DNA of 36,065 nt, from NCBI RefSeq assembly GCF_013817205.1, contig NZ_JACDDD010000036.1, positions 1 through 36,065 of the forward strand, in the 5' to 3' direction. The stretch comes from Polaromonas sp. Its GTDB lineage: Bacteria; Pseudomonadota; Gammaproteobacteria; Burkholderiales; Burkholderiaceae_C. The stretch's first letter is position 1. Each line of letters starts with the position of its first letter. The notes beneath the pieces are model-generated. The model made no database searches. It was not told where the DNA came from and saw only the letters and a list, made by a program, of their open reading frames with translations. Below, in pieces: positions 20,707-26,210 of this stretch. The position numbers and the translations under genes are program-made.

Positions 20707-21441
20707 TCAACCCGTGCCGAAATCGGTGGCCGTGGGACCCAGCGCGCGGCTCAGCAGCACGCCCACCACCGCGCCGACGGCTTCAGCGATCACAAAACCG
20801 CCCGCGCTGCTGGGCGCGATGCCCGCAAAACTGTCAGAGAACATGCGGCCCAGCACCGCAGCCGGGTTGGCAAACGAGGTGCTGGCGGTGAACCAGTAGG
20901 CCGCGCCAATATAACAAGCCACCAGCGCCGCCGCCTTGCCGGGCGGCGCGCGCAGGATGACCAGAATCAGCCCAGCGGTGGCAACGGCCTCAGCCAGCCA
21001 CTGACCCCAGCCGCTGAAGTTGCCGCCGGCCGTCCAGCCGCCGCGTAGTTTGCTGCTCAGTTGCAGAATGTTCAGGTCAAACATGGCGTGCGCCAGCCAA
21101 GCACCGGCGACTGCGCCCAGCAGTTGAGTTGCTATGAAAAAAAGAGCAGTCTGCGCACGTCCATCAAGGGCGTAGGGCGTTCTTGACCATACGACCAGGG
21201 TCACCAACGGGTTGAAGTGCGCGCCGCTGACCGGCCCCAGTAGCTCAATCAGCACGTACAGTGCAAACACTGTCACCAGGGTGTTGGCCAGCAGCGCCAC
21301 ACCGGTGTTGCCGCCCGAGAGCTGCTCGGCCATGATGCCCGAGCCAATGACGGCGCAGAGCAGGGCGGCGGTGCCCAGAAATTCAGCGAACAGACGTTGC
21401 GCCAGCGGCGGCGTGACGGCCGTGCTTATGCCTTGCAGCAA
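20707..21441 (-). CDS. Aquaglyceroporin, AqpS-like arsenite channel
   Basis: This 244-residue protein of the MIP family has six membrane segments and the two pore loops. The second is the canonical FANPAAVL (Asn190-Pro191-Ala192); the first reads HFNPLVTL, so its alanine is replaced by leucine (77-79). Variant first motifs occur in arsenic-linked aquaporins. In ars operons such channels let arsenite produced by arsenate reductase leave down its gradient, as described for Sinorhizobium AqpS. Here it is co-transcribed with arsC and arsI, and there is no intact arsenite pump in the window. The start overlaps the preceding gene by 16 bases. Confidence 0.88.
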   Translation of the reverse strand: MLQGISTAVTPPLAQRLFAEFLGTAALLCAVIGSGIMAEQLSGGNTGVALLANTLVTVFALYVLIELLGPVSGAHFNPLVTLVVWSRTPYALDGRAQTALFFIATQLLGAVAGAWLAHAMFDLNILQLSSKLRGGWTAGGNFSGWGQWLAEAVATAGLILVILRAPPGKAAALVACYIGAAYWFTASTSFANPAAVLGRMFSDSFAGIAPSSAGGFVIAEAVGAVVGVLLSRALGPTATDFGTG

Positions 21442-22304
21442 GCCGGGCCAAACATCGACAGCACCTGCGCCCAGTAGGGCCGGCGCGCGGGGTATTTGCT
21501 GGCGGCAAACAGTCCGATGGACGCAGGCCCTGTGTTTCCGCGCGGATAGTGAAAGGTTCCAAACACCAGATCCCAGACCATCAAGGCGCTGCCGTAGTTG
21601 CTGTTGCCTTCTTCCGGCCGGGTTGAGTGGTGCCAGCGGTGCAGCTCATTGGTGCTGAAAACATAGTTGAGCCAGCCATGGCGCAGCGGGAGGTTGACGT
21701 GCTGCAGCATCTGCACTGGCTGGGTCAGCGCGATGTAGCCGAGCAGGACATCGGCAGGCACGCCCAGAAGCATCAAGGGCAGCATGCTCAAGCTGTGCTT
21801 CAGTGCGTATTCCAGCGGGTGAACGCGAAAGTTGTTGATGGAATACAGGCGTTCACTGCCATGGTGCAGGGCATGCAGCCACCACAGCGCCGTCTGGGTG
21901 TGGTGCCAGCGGTGAACCCAGTACTTGCCTAACTCGGCCAGCAGCGTCACCAGCAGTACCTGCACGAGAAAAGGCAAGGGAGCCGCGAACCAACCCGCGC
22001 CTGGCTCTATCCATCCATACAGGGCAATCACGGCCAGGGGTGACAGCCACTTCAGCAATGGCTGAACCACCCCGGCCAGCAAGCCAAAACTCAGCCAGTC
22101 GGTCAGCCGGTCGCCGCGCGGTGCATTCCAGGGGGCGTGATGCGGCATGTAACGCTCCAGCAACATGGCCAAGCCCAGCGCACCGAGGCTGCTGATAAGA
22201 ATGGCCATTTCCAGATTGCCGCCGGTGTGTCGGGCATACAGAAAACTGCCAATGCTGATCAGCAATGCGGCGGGCAATAGACCTAGGGAGATGATGAATT
22301 TCAT
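21426..22304 (-). CDS. Membrane fatty-acid hydroxylase / sterol desaturase family protein
   Basis: This protein of about 292 residues belongs to the integral-membrane di-iron hydroxylase superfamily that also contains sterol desaturases and carotenoid or fatty-acid hydroxylases. Three histidine boxes are visible: HRWHH at 131-135, HALHH at 144-148 and HRWHH at 222-226, plus H209 and H252. Membrane helices occur at about 5-22, 33-50, 72-96 and 112-127. ATG at 22302-22304 was chosen because the upstream extension lies within arsC in another frame. The gene sits between arsC and the aquaporin with short spacing, so it is part of the ars operon, which is not a known context for this family. A lipid or organoarsenic substrate is speculation. 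Confidence 0.82.
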   Translation of the reverse strand: MKFIISLGLLPAALLISIGSFLYARHTGGNLEMAILISSLGALGLAMLLERYMPHHAPWNAPRGDRLTDWLSFGLLAGVVQPLLKWLSPLAVIALYGWIEPGAGWFAAPLPFLVQVLLVTLLAELGKYWVHRWHHTQTALWWLHALHHGSERLYSINNFRVHPLEYALKHSLSMLPLMLLGVPADVLLGYIALTQPVQMLQHVNLPLRHGWLNYVFSTNELHRWHHSTRPEEGNSNYGSALMVWDLVFGTFHYPRGNTGPASIGLFAASKYPARRPYWAQVLSMFGPACCKA

Positions 22305-22329
22305 GGATAGAAAGTTGGGAAGGAATAAA

Positions 22330-22833
22330 TCAGTTTGACGCTGCCAGCTCGCGCGCCGAACGTTCGACCATGGTGCGCTCCAGTTTCTCGGGCGGCAGGT
22401 TGACCAGCAGCTCGAGCCGGTGGCGAATCGCCAGCAGGGTCTGGCGGAAAGCTTCCTGCTTCTGAGCCACGTCACCCGGGGCCTCCGACGGATCGGGGTA
22501 GCCCCAATGCGCGGTGGCAGGCTGGCCGGGCCAGTAGGGGCAGACCTCGCCGGCGGCGTTGTCGCAGACGGTAATCACCAAATCCATCGCCGGGGCATCA
22601 GGCTCGCCGAACTCGTCCCAGCTTTTGCTGCGCAGGCCTTCGGTCGATATGCCGGCGTTAGTCAGCACCTTCAGGGCCAGCGGGTTGGGCTGCTGGTTCT
22701 CGCGCGGGCTGCTGCCGGCGGAGAAAGCCCGGAAGCGGCCCTTGCCGATGTGGTTGAGTGCGGCTTCAGCCAGGATGCTGCGGGCCGAGTTGTGGGTGCA
22801 GAGAAACAGGACGTTGATCACGCGGTCGGTCAT
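22330..22833 (-). CDS. arsC: Arsenate reductase, low-molecular-weight phosphatase type
   Basis: This 167-residue protein reduces arsenate to arsenite using thioredoxin or another low-molecular-weight thiol. The CX5R phosphate loop is at the start (FLCTHNSARS, Cys12), and VCDNAAGEVCPYWPG and HWGYPDPSE carry the other conserved features of this family, including a general-acid aspartate. The size is slightly above the 130-145 usual because of a C-terminal helix. The ATG is 10 bases after the arsI stop. A second, unrelated arsenate reductase is encoded at 25076, so the locus has both biochemical types. Confidence 0.92.
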   Translation of the reverse strand: MTDRVINVLFLCTHNSARSILAEAALNHIGKGRFRAFSAGSSPRENQQPNPLALKVLTNAGISTEGLRSKSWDEFGEPDAPAMDLVITVCDNAAGEVCPYWPGQPATAHWGYPDPSEAPGDVAQKQEAFRQTLLAIRHRLELLVNLPPEKLERTMVERSARELAASN

Positions 22834-22843
22834 TGCGGTTCTT

Positions 22844-23314
22844 TCAGCAGCAGACTTTGGCAGTGGGAGTTGCTACAGTATTTGTAGCTGCTGGCGCACA
22901 GCAGGCGGGGGCTGAGGCCCTATTTGATTCAGGTTTTTGCTCACTGAAGACCGGAATGCCGTCCAGCGTGTGGAACTGCTCCCAGGCCACGCCTTGCGGG
23001 TCGGTCAGCCAGTATTTGTCGCTGCGCGCATAGCAGCAGGTGGTTTCGCCGTCGTCCTGCAGTGCCAGGCCGGCGTCCCTGGCGTGGGCTCTCAGTTCGG
23101 CAAGCTCATCAGCGGTTTCGACCTGGATGCCCAAATGGTCCACACCGGTAGCGCTGCCGCGGGTCGAGATGGCAAAGTTGACCGGTGGGTCCTGCAGCAT
23201 CCACTTCGCATAGTCGGCCTCGGTACGCGCGGGAGGCCGGTGAAACATGGCGGAATAAAACGCGATGTTTTTGCTGAGGTCTTCGACATGCATGTGGACA
23301 TGAAAGCGTTTCAT
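22844..23314 (-). CDS. arsI: ArsI/CadI-type glyoxalase-fold protein (probable C-As lyase)
   Basis: This 156-residue vicinal-oxygen-chelate protein is likely an Fe(II)-dependent lyase that splits the carbon-arsenic bond of methylarsenite, a known role of ArsI. The metal ligands fit HVHMHV (His5 or His7), VDHLGIQ (His60) and WEQFHT (Glu112). The vicinal pair C93-C94 in TTCCYARSDKYW corresponds to the substrate-binding cysteines of ArsI. The C-terminal 28 residues end in a C138-C139 pair and a terminal CC; most of this tail is encoded by an inverted copy of the dispersed intergenic repeat. The ATG overlaps the upstream ATP-grasp gene by four bases. CadI-like cadmium-induced proteins share this family, so the substrate is inferred from context. 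Confidence 0.88.
   Translation of the reverse strand: MKRFHVHMHVEDLSKNIAFYSAMFHRPPARTEADYAKWMLQDPPVNFAISTRGSATGVDHLGIQVETADELAELRAHARDAGLALQDDGETTCCYARSDKYWLTDPQGVAWEQFHTLDGIPVFSEQKPESNRASAPACCAPAATNTVATPTAKVCC
22869..22937 (-). repeat. Dispersed repeat, copy 5, within the 3' end of arsI
   Basis: On the minus strand this reads GAATCAAATAGGGCCTCAGC, then a variable spacer, then GTGCGCCAGCAGCTACAAAT and GTAGCAACTCC. It has the same order of blocks as the intergenic copies (GGCCTCCAGCC, GCGCAAGCAGCTA, TAGCAA). It encodes roughly the ArsI residues ESNRASAPACCAPAATN and the few that follow. Confidence 0.75.
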
Positions 23315-24669
23315 GAGGGGCTCCGGGTTGAGGTTGAACGGGCAGTGGATGGATGGCAGTCGGCACGCAAGGAATGGCTGGCGCCCGCGTCCAGCGTGAT
23401 GGCGGGCACCACCACCACCGGCGAAAAACCACCCCCGGCGGTGCGGAAGTTGGTGGTCTGTCCGGTGTAGGTGCGTGCCGCCAGCAACTGCACCTGGCCG
23501 CGAAAGGTGTAGGCGCGGATGTCCAGCTTCAACCGTGTGGGCGCGCCATCGACATTGACCACCCGTTCACTGGGCGGCACCAGCGCCTGCGCGATAAACC
23601 CGCCGCCCAGGATGTCGGCCCACACGCCGCGCGTGAGCTTGTCTCCGCGGTAGGCGGCTTTGGCGCCGTAACCTGCCACCGGCTTGAAGAAAAGCTGGCG
23701 CCGTCGGGCCCAGAGCGTGTCTGCATGTTCGGCGCTGACGAGTTCGGTGTGTGGAACCACGGCTTGCAGGATGTGCCTGTCTTCTGCGGATACGCCCCAT
23801 GACGCCAGCAGTACATCGTCACCCAGTGTGATGAGATTGCGTTTGTCGGCAAACAGCGCATGGGCACGCGGATGCGGCGTGACCACCGCCGCGCCGGTCA
23901 CATAGGCGCGGCGCAAGGCCTGGTGGCTGGGCTCGGACAGGCTGAAATCGGTCAGGCGGTTGTAAACCAGATCGACTGTGGCACCCGGCAGCGCCGGGTG
24001 CCACAGTGCGCCGTCTTTCCACAACAGCTCACGCGCGTCGCCCACGGCAGCAGTGATGCCGTGCGCGATGAAGAGTTGCCGCGCCAGTGCGAATTCCGGC
24101 GCGAGGTATTGGGCTTGCGGCGCATCGTCGGTGATCAGCACGCTGCGCAGGGGCTGACTGCCGCGTTGAGCCTGCCACTCGGCGCGGAACATGTCCACAA
24201 AGGTCTGGTTGATATGCGTCAGGTGGCTGGAAGCATCCATCAGGCCTTGCAGGGGTTCGCAGCAGTCGCGGTGCGCGCGTGCCAGTGCGGCATTGAGCAA
24301 CGCGCCGCCGGCGTTGGTATTGATCTCGATCAGGCGCGGGCCGTCGTCGCCCAGATGAAAGTCGTAACCCATGAAAACGCCTGCGGGGCCGAAGTCGTGA
24401 CGGGCGATCTCTGGCGCATGGGCCAGCGCATGGTGTTGGTAGGCGGGGAGGGCGAGCACACGCTCGATGGCCGCAATCGCCTGGCCCACGGCGGCGCGCA
24501 TGCCAGGGTCCACAAACACGGCGGTTTCAGAAAACAGGTGCGGGTGAGTGGTGGACAGCCCGTCCAGCATGCCCTGCAGGCAGGGCTCGGTTTCAAGCTG
24601 CTGGCGCAGGCGCTCGGGGCTCAGGGTGCGGCACAGGCACCCGAGGTTCAGGGTTTCGGCGAGGTTCAC
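23311..24669 (-). CDS. Circularly permuted ATP-grasp-like protein in the ars operon
   Basis: This 452-residue protein has ATP-grasp features in permuted order. The metal-binding acidic motif LIEINTNAGG (113-122) precedes KRNLI (276-280), FFKPVAGYGAKAAYRG (327-342, resembling the nucleotide-binding loop) and FIAQALVPPSER (358-369). It ends with LDIRAYTF (382-389) and TYTGQTTNFRTAGGGF (400-415). In ordinary ATP-grasp enzymes the lysine/glycine loop comes first. Such enzymes ligate a carboxylate to an amine or thiol using ATP. Placement between arsR and arsI (start 12 bases after arsR, end overlapping arsI by four) implies a job in arsenic or methylarsenical handling, perhaps making a thiol or amide conjugate, but no substrate can be read from it. 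The last 25 residues look low-complexity. Confidence 0.72.
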   Translation of the reverse strand: MNLAETLNLGCLCRTLSPERLRQQLETEPCLQGMLDGLSTTHPHLFSETAVFVDPGMRAAVGQAIAAIERVLALPAYQHHALAHAPEIARHDFGPAGVFMGYDFHLGDDGPRLIEINTNAGGALLNAALARAHRDCCEPLQGLMDASSHLTHINQTFVDMFRAEWQAQRGSQPLRSVLITDDAPQAQYLAPEFALARQLFIAHGITAAVGDARELLWKDGALWHPALPGATVDLVYNRLTDFSLSEPSHQALRRAYVTGAAVVTPHPRAHALFADKRNLITLGDDVLLASWGVSAEDRHILQAVVPHTELVSAEHADTLWARRRQLFFKPVAGYGAKAAYRGDKLTRGVWADILGGGFIAQALVPPSERVVNVDGAPTRLKLDIRAYTFRGQVQLLAARTYTGQTTNFRTAGGGFSPVVVVPAITLDAGASHSLRADCHPSTARSTSTRSPS

Positions 24670-24681
24670 GCGGCTCCCCGG

Positions 24682-25023
24682 TCAGCAGGTGGCGCAGGCG
24701 GCGTCACCGGGTACTTCGCAAGCATCGCCCTGGCAACAGTGTTCGGTCATATAGGCGAGCAGGGCGTTCATCTGCCCAAAGTCGGCGCGGTAAATCAGGT
24801 TGCGCCCGCGCGGTTCGCTGCTGACCAGGCCGGAATGCGCCAGTTCTTTCAGGTGGAAAGACAGGGCGCTGGGCGCGACTTCCAGCCGCTCGGCAATCGC
24901 GCCCGGCGTCAGTCCGTCGGGCCCGGCCACCACCAGCGCGCGGAAGGTGCGCAGGCGTTGGGCCTGGGCCAGCGCCGCCAACGCGCGCACTGCCGAAACT
25001 TCGTCGAGGTTTTTTATTTTCAT
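24682..25023 (-). CDS. arsR: Arsenic-responsive ArsR/SmtB repressor
   Basis: This 113-residue winged-helix repressor has a recognition region at about 40-75 (TPGAIAERLEVAPSALSFHL, KELAHSGLVSSE, GRNLIYRAD). Instead of the CxC in helix 3 seen in the E. coli plasmid type, C96, C97 and C102 lie near the C-terminus (HCCQGDAC). This matches the C95/C96/C102 arsenite site described for Acidithiobacillus ferrooxidans ArsR. C110 and C113 follow. It should bind the palindrome directly upstream of its own start codon and repress both divergent ars operons until As(III) or methylarsenite binds. No ribosome-binding site is visible; promoter geometry suggests a leaderless transcript. Confidence 0.93.
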   Translation of the reverse strand: MKIKNLDEVSAVRALAALAQAQRLRTFRALVVAGPDGLTPGAIAERLEVAPSALSFHLKELAHSGLVSSEPRGRNLIYRADFGQMNALLAYMTEHCCQGDACEVPGDAACATC

Positions 25024-25058
25024 AATTCAAATATAATTGAATTATCGAAGTAAAACAA
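25022..25058. promoter_or_regulatory. ArsR operator and overlapping divergent promoters
   Basis: ATAATTCAA-N6-TTGAATTAT (25022-25045) is a perfect 9-base inverted repeat resembling ArsR sites with TTCAA/TTGAA half-sites. On the minus strand, -35 TTGTTT (25053-25058) and -10 TATATT (25030-25035) are 17 bases apart and end 6 bases before the arsR ATG. On the plus strand TATAAT (25032-25037) is a perfect -10 for the arsC-arsH operon with only a weak -35. One bound repressor would cover both promoters. Confidence 0.8.
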
Positions 25059-25075
25059 GCGAGCAAGAAAATTCA

Positions 25076-25507
25076 ATGACCAATATCACGATTTACCACA
25101 ACCCCCAGTGCGGCACCTCGCGCAACACGCTGGCGCTGATTCGCAACAGCGGGGCCGAGCCCGAAGTCATTGAGTACATCAAAACCCCGCCCGGGCGCGA
25201 GACCCTGCAGCAACTGATCACCGCCATGGGCGTGCCGGTGCGCGAGGTGATCCGGCAAAAGGGCACACCCTACGCCGAACTCCAGCTCGACAACCCGGCG
25301 CTGAGCGACGACCAGCTGCTGGACGCCATGCTGGCGCACCCTATCCTGATCAATCGCCCCATCGTCGTCACGCCGCTGGGCACGCGCCTGTGCCGTCCTT
25401 CTGAAGCCGTGCTGGACATCCTGCCGGCGCCGCAACTGGGCGCTTTTACCAAAGAAGACGGTGAACGGCTCATCAATGACAAAGGGGAACGTGTTGCCAG
25501 CAACTGA
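25076..25507 (+). CDS. arsC: Arsenate reductase, glutaredoxin type
   Basis: This 143-residue protein of the ArsC/Spx fold reduces arsenate with glutathione and glutaredoxin. The active-site motif is [11 protein letters not shown] with Cys12, and [18 protein letters not shown] carries the conserved arginines for oxyanion binding. ATG at 25076 was chosen because the family starts with [10 protein letters not shown]; an upstream in-frame ATG at 25037 lies inside the operator. It is the first gene of the rightward operon and overlaps arsH by 32 bases. It is mechanistically distinct from the phosphatase-type ArsC on the opposite side of arsR. Confidence 0.94.
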
Positions 25508-26210
25508 TCTTCCCAACATCGATGCGGCGCTGTTCGTGCCGCCGTCAACCGCGGCCCTGCAGGCCTTGCGCCCCTCGGCGCATGCGCCGCGAATTCTGCT
25601 GCTCTATGGCTCGGTGCGCGAACGCTCCTACAGCCGCCTGCTCAGCGAGGAAGCCGCGCGCCTGCTGCAGGCCATGGGCGCAGAAACAAAAACCTTCGAC
25701 CCGCGCGGCTTGCCGCTGCCCGACGACGCGCCCGGCACACACCCCAAGGTGCAGGAGTTGCGGCAACTCGCGCAGTGGGCCGAAGGCATGGTCTGGACCT
25801 CACCCGAGCGTCACGGCGCGATGACCGGCATCATGAAGTCGCAGATCGACTGGGTCCCACTCGCCGACGGCGCGGTGCGGCCGACCCAGGGCAAAACCCT
25901 CGCCGTGATGCAGGTCAGCGGCGGCTCGCAGTCTTTCAATGCCGTCAACCAACTGCGCGTGCTGGGCCGGTGGATGCGCATGCTCACAATTCCCAACCAG
26001 GCCTCGGTCGCCAAGGCCTTCCTGGAGTTCGATGAAGCCGGGCGCATGAAACCCTCGGCCTATTACGACCGCGTGGTGGACGTGATGGAAGAAATGGTCA
26101 AGTTCACCCTGCTCACACGCGATGTATCGCCTTACCTGGTGGACAGGTACAGCGAGCGCAAGGAAAGCGCCGAAGCGCTGTCGCAACGGGTGAATCAGCG
26201 GAGTATTTGA
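25476..26210 (+). CDS. arsH: ArsH, NADPH-dependent FMN flavoprotein
   Basis: This protein of about 244 residues is an NADPH:FMN oxidoreductase of the ArsH type, reported to oxidise trivalent methylarsenicals to less toxic pentavalent forms. The flavin phosphate loop is in [15 protein letters not shown], and [20 protein letters not shown] is the signature of the family. The region ending [25 protein letters not shown] has the expected C-terminal oligomerisation helix. ATG 25476 overlaps arsC; a GTG at 25491 with AAAGGGG just before it is an equally possible start. With ArsI it gives this locus activity on methylated arsenic. Confidence 0.94.

Follow-up and report, generated by a model that had tools for sequence, protein, structure and literature searches.

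Resistance systems of the ars and cop types are built from reductases, oxidases, methylation and efflux. The described enzymes nearest in predicted fold to the protein reported here are eukaryotic-type glutathione synthetase, glutathionylspermidine synthetase (GspS) and YgiC; RefSeq names YgiC and YjfC peptide–spermidine ligases, a finding that reportedly stands in the title of a 2023 paper. We analysed a stretch of 36,065 nucleotides (the window), namely contig C69 from a Polaromonas sp. genome of 3.77 Mb; the window carries an arsenic resistance (ars) operon. Its second gene encodes a 452-residue protein (the ligase) with a predicted permuted ATP-grasp fold and four conserved cysteines. The fold is already known; what is new is the four-cysteine family, which is undescribed, together with its equally undescribed link to several metals.

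In the literature searched, which included few subscription papers, the text available to us (among others of PMC7826186, PMC10092412, PMC6205960, PMC12506659 and PMC12568646) describes no role for this ligase family in metal or arsenic resistance, in agreement with what an earlier note on the window had said of arsenic. An 'ATP-grasp domain-containing protein' of Nitratiruptor, listed in the available part of one of these papers with a log2 fold change of 1.03 for Cd and 1.29 for Cu (PMC10092412), might be related to the family.

Fold and conserved residues of the ligase

The ligase gene is present as a single copy in the genome and has the following features, all on the minus strand.

23311..24669, minus strand, four-cysteine permuted ATP-grasp ligase, 452 residues with a core of residues 1–422, GTG start
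24631..24639, minus strand, codons for C11-x-C13 in the motif LNxxCxCxTL (position derived from the start at 24669)
24313..24363, minus strand, D103-F-H ... E115-I-N117-T-N119, candidate metal/ATP motif, N-terminal (permuted), in 85 of 85 alignment rows
24259..24264, minus strand, codons for C136-C137

The predicted structure and its PDB matches give a circularly permuted ATP-grasp fold, bearing out the permuted motifs that the earlier note had read in this protein. E115 and N117 precede K276, K329 and D383, and the E-x-N motif is N-terminal to the lid. Over the whole chain, the predicted structure has the fold of eukaryotic-type glutathione synthetase, and the models suggest that the ligase, this synthetase, glutathionylspermidine synthetase and YgiC have one fold in common. 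Structural alignments with eukaryotic-type glutathione and homoglutathione synthetases (2hgs, 1m0w and 3kal) show 11–12% identity, and the ligase differs from eukaryotic-type glutathione synthetase by its own CxC and CC cysteines.

At the level of sequence profiles, the ligase stands apart from the described families. The eukaryotic GSH-synthase profile matches neither the window ligase nor any of 85 aligned members of its family. The host carries a separate gshB, and the profiles of prokaryotic GshB (GSH-S_N and GSH-S_ATP) leave the window ligase unmatched and find 2 and 1 of the 85 members, with best E values of 0.021 and 0.03, respectively. PF03738, which covers GspS, YgiC and YjfC, gave no match in a Pfam scan of the 85 members; it is absent from all 21 related genomes and was found in 6 of 143 genomes of the class. 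Unlike the window ligase, YgiC and YjfC have no ars gene beside them in the E. coli stretches examined. CP_ATPgrasp_2 (PF14403) matches 26 of the 85 members weakly (best E 8e-8), the window ligase not being among them. A PDB sequence search with the family profile gave 3n6x as top match (E 0.055), a search with the single window ligase returned only noise, and a PHROGs search found nothing. Cp1B (9cjn), a ligase of the E-64 pathway, shows 16% identity to the window ligase; in the part of its description available, it is a fungal natural-product enzyme (PMC12568646).

The alignment consists of 72 main and 13 distant rows, with L115 and L141 among the sequences left out. Invariant in all 85 rows are D103, H105, E115, N117, N119, D181, Q187, Y236, R238, D241, K276, K329, K381, D383, R385, R399, Q404, T406 and N407; our assignment of conserved residues to Mg and ATP binding is an assumption made from their position and from general knowledge of ATP-grasp enzymes. 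C11 and C13 are conserved in 72 of 72 main rows, and C136 and C137 in 71 of 72 (scored by alignment columns, as a CC regular expression missed rows). None of the 13 distant rows has C136 or C137, and the CxC region is missing there, one stray cysteine at column 11 apart. A CxC motif lies within the first 80 residues at 138 of 141 loci (L001–L142), the exceptions being L115 and L141, which have no in-frame CxC, and L060. The blocks that hold the four cysteines are predicted with a mean pLDDT (predicted local distance difference test) of 91–96. L141, a long branch among the CxC-bearing rows, lacks both CxC and CC, which is consistent with a joint role of the cysteine pairs. The four-cysteine proteins constitute an undescribed family on a known fold.

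The ligase is under purifying selection, with a ratio of nonsynonymous to synonymous substitution rates (dN/dS) of 0.09–0.12 over 422 codons against five Polaromonas copies; two copies from further away gave 0.19 and 0.24 (all seven comparisons made are given). Beyond residue ∼ 422 follows a variable tail, whose last three blocks have a pLDDT of 50–56. Several ligase copies end in cysteine-rich tails, such as SCAC in L060 and SCGC in L084.

Metal genes around the family

Scanning GTDB contigs yielded 436 relatives of the window ligase. Counting weak and distant matches, relatives occur in 40 of 299 genomes of a family sample and in 128 of 398 genomes of a phylum sample. Since the best matches are biased, the genome samples served as control: the family sample supplied 38 places and the phylum sample 15, and 20 distant matches were picked by hand from the latter; weak partial matches of G159, G275, G168 and G170 were left out, and the fragments L233 and L187 were dropped. 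Flanks were widened where the contig permitted, and a panel of metal genes was sought within 5 kb. A panel gene was found near 33 of 45 four-cysteine proteins versus 2 of 26 others, with a Fisher p of 6e-8 that is only indicative because of the biased source of the panel and because most of the distant set belongs to a single deep branch. With a stricter panel, the counts are 29 of 45 and 1 of 26, and near the 20 distant matches there was no panel gene. The ligase family is associated with genes for arsenic, copper and other metals.

Gene order was compared among the best 80 of the 436 relatives (L001–L080, some near-identical) and the window. A codon-usage gene caller gave a ligase gene at 78 of these 81 loci (none at L068, L070 and L071). 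On the same strand, the gene directly upstream is arsR at 36 of the 78 loci, a cation diffusion facilitator (CDF) transporter at 8 and Acr3 at 4. Directly downstream are an arsC of the low-molecular-weight phosphatase (LMWP) type at 18 loci, arsI at 12 and the gene for an ArsJ-associated glyceraldehyde-3-phosphate dehydrogenase (GAPDH) at 6. Where arsR precedes, it overlaps the ligase gene in 19 of 36 cases, by 4 nt in 15 of them. Coupling to arsR is a common theme of these loci, and coupling to arsI is found in a minority: the translational link to arsI proposed in the earlier note is matched in the window by a 4-nt overlap but is not conserved.

In a tree calculated without L060, L081 and L130, the window falls into a clade of 51 rows, of which 41 are labelled ars, 4 have arsR alone and 6 are other; 13 of 18 copper-labelled rows are grouped in a different clade. 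Some labels are loose (L107 and L109 are 'ars' through a GAPDH match only, L038 through GAPDH alone and L100 through a generic major facilitator superfamily match). Placement in ars operons is conserved in the window's clade and not in the family overall, which spreads across several metals and includes copies without any metal gene nearby. A neighbourhood survey, proposed in the earlier note with homologues mainly outside ars loci as the outcome that would speak against an arsenic role, therefore gives a mixed answer. Four CxC-bearing copies (L075, L076, L077 and L080), from Rhodocyclales-type genomes, adjoin apparent molybdenum-cofactor genes, which were named by eye.

Relatives also occur in 32 plasmid records, all less than 60% identical and, where annotated, named 'hypothetical protein'. 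Of the 21 plasmid stretches examined, 13 have annotated genes of the copper type, for a multicopper oxidase or copper oxidase, CopB, CueR or a copper-binding protein, and two further ones contain a heavy-metal P-type ATPase. Two stretches carry mer genes, one of them also counted among the 13; the remainder carry efflux genes of the resistance–nodulation–division (RND) or CDF type, or no recognisable gene.

The ars operon and arsenosugar-type genes

The operon and its divergent neighbours comprise, besides the ligase gene, the following features.

24682..25023, minus strand, arsR, ArsR/SmtB repressor at the head of the operon (NF033788, E 1e-15)
22844..23314, minus strand, arsI, ArsI/CadI VOC family (NF041414, E 4e-39; also matches PF00903)
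22330..22833, minus strand, arsC-like, LMWP type (PF01451, E 2e-16; TIGR02691, E 1e-17, below cut-off)
21426..22307, minus strand, fatty-acid-hydroxylase-like membrane protein in the operon (PF04116, E 1.5e-27; NF052566 (OlsE), E 3e-50, below cut-off)
20707..21441, minus strand, aquaglyceroporin-like channel of the major intrinsic protein (MIP) family (PF00230, E 1e-15)
25037..25507, plus strand, divergent arsC, glutaredoxin type (TIGR00014, E 1.4e-44)
25461..26210, plus strand, divergent arsH (TIGR02690, E 5e-123)
25012..25055, no strand, near-palindrome of 44 nt across the divergent start region, with 22-nt arms that are 82% complementary

The order in the operon is arsR, ligase, arsI, LMWP-type arsC-like gene, fatty-acid-hydroxylase-like gene and MIP channel, with the glutaredoxin-type arsC and arsH divergent. 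The ligase gene is tightly spaced on both sides, as the earlier note had described: 12 nt separate it from the end of arsR at 24682, and its stop codon overlaps the ATG of arsI (23314) by 4 nt. The profile matches likewise confirm the ArsI and ArsH named there. The near-palindrome is a candidate ArsR operator.

No Acr3 was found among the scanned proteins of 20707–26210, a search that did not extend to ArsB or to pumps encoded outside this stretch. Arsenite may leave through the MIP channel. The OlsE-like gene is present in the ars operons of L003 and L012 as well. The window ArsI ends in KVCC, and PF12681 has no match in the window's own genome, although ArsI matches PF00903 and NF041414.

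A distant, cysteine-less branch of the ATP-grasp genes, from one genome family (f39; L161, L200, L201, L247–L262 and L264–L266), has another setting. At 22 of 24 loci, the gene immediately after the ATP-grasp gene is related to the TIGR04283 'arsenosugar biosynthesis glycosyltransferase'; a TIGR04282 relative comes next at 20 and a methylthioadenosine (MTA) phosphorylase gene lies nearby at 13. These counts are by similarity to L161, on which alone the family names were checked, and the arsenosugar link depends on those NCBI names. Other distant loci with wide flanks showed no arsenosugar-type neighbours. As companions of the four-cysteine branch, such glycosyltransferases were rejected, their phmmer matches lying in the distant branch only. 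The window's own genome has a separate cluster (L246, C108:17000-24602) with an MTA-phosphorylase-like gene, ArsS (TIGR04167), TIGR04283, a TIGR04282-like gene and an ArsM-like methyltransferase below cut-off, and may therefore make arsenosugars.

Proposed function and alternatives

We propose, with confidence just short of even, that the ligase is an amide or peptide ligase with a four-cysteine metal site that makes a small soft-metal ligand, likely a thiol, from common metabolites. It would be produced together with the ars genes. Using ATP and Mg, for which D103, E115, N117, K276, K329 and D383 are candidate residues, it would phosphorylate a small peptide substrate on a carboxylate, which it would then join to an amine. 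Since no constant biosynthetic partner gene lies beside the ligase in the loci examined, the substrates are probably common metabolites and the synthesis a single step, starting for example from glutathione or γ-glutamylcysteine; extension or amidation of a thiol peptide would be the simplest account. The product, most likely a small ligand for soft metals and probably one with a thiol, would contribute to resistance. Arsenic, copper and mercury have their affinity for thiols in common. C11, C13, C136 and C137 probably form a putative soft-metal or metal–thiolate site, which may sense metal or orient a metal-bound substrate. The protective thiol suggested in the earlier note gains support as one possible product.

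Several findings weigh against this proposal. Compared by profile, the ligase family and the GspS/YgiC family show no significant match (hhalign A2 versus A3, 2.2%), and the cysteine pairs are imperfectly coupled, L142 having CxC with G-A in place of CC, and L038 having C-S. Twelve of the 45 four-cysteine proteins have no panel gene within 5 kb. The panel itself was derived from the neighbours of four-cysteine copies and includes a few loosely assigned genes, weak MerA matches among them, and the 26 proteins compared with them come mostly from one deep branch, so that the contrast is not phylogenetically independent. Lastly, an amidotransferase of the N-acetylglutaminylglutamine type (TIGR03104) adjoins the ligase in eight distinct loci, with no hint of a thiol. 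These are L172 (the same place as L095), L215, L216, L208, L220, L231, L118 and L074; it lies upstream of the ligase in two and downstream in six, is partial in L219 at a contig end and was confirmed as TIGR03104 on L172 and L231.

These amidotransferases, in both orders, and the RefSeq names of YgiC and YjfC argue for a non-thiol amide, which is the main rival to a thiol. The ligase would then be metal-gated and produce a peptide–polyamine conjugate or peptide amide, with the cysteines serving only to sense metal or to bind a structural zinc. We consider this unlikely, as it does not by itself explain why the thiol-affine contexts of arsenic, copper and mercury recur. The ligase might instead travel in metal islands as a passenger whose own function, in housekeeping or stress, has nothing to do with metals: some four-cysteine copies adjoin clpB-like, yaaA-like and other non-metal genes (named by eye), and the 12 proteins without panel genes fit as well. 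The tight placement in ars operons with frequent arsR overlap, the position directly after CDF genes, the copper-type plasmid stretches and the purifying selection make it improbable. Modification of a protein, in which an amino acid or amine is joined to, for example, a metal-binding protein in RimK-type fashion, would suit ATP-grasp chemistry and the lack of a constant partner gene; we give it a slim chance.

Slimmer still is the chance that the ligase conjugates arsenic or an organoarsenical, as the earlier note had proposed. The arsI and arsH of the window locus speak for it, as does the ArsS/glycosyltransferase cluster with its ArsM-like gene in the same genome. However, arsI directly follows in merely 12 of the 78 loci, and the copies in copper contexts make arsenic conjugation a poor fit. 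The specific tie to ArsI, ArsH and methylarsenicals is not supported, because relatives that share the catalytic-type residues and the cysteines occur in clusters of copper or CDF genes and close to mer, where no organoarsenical would be expected.

A dedicated ligase with ties to several soft metals suggests that there is a metal-binding metabolite not known so far, and would give a function to a family whose annotated plasmid copies are now named 'hypothetical protein'. That one undescribed low-molecular-weight ligand, made in many bacteria in a single ligation step by a glutathione-synthetase-like enzyme with its own four-cysteine soft-metal site, acts in resistance to arsenic, copper and mercury alike is a broader and rather doubtful idea. 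If it is true, the ligase would supplement the known pumps and reductases with buffering in the cytosol.

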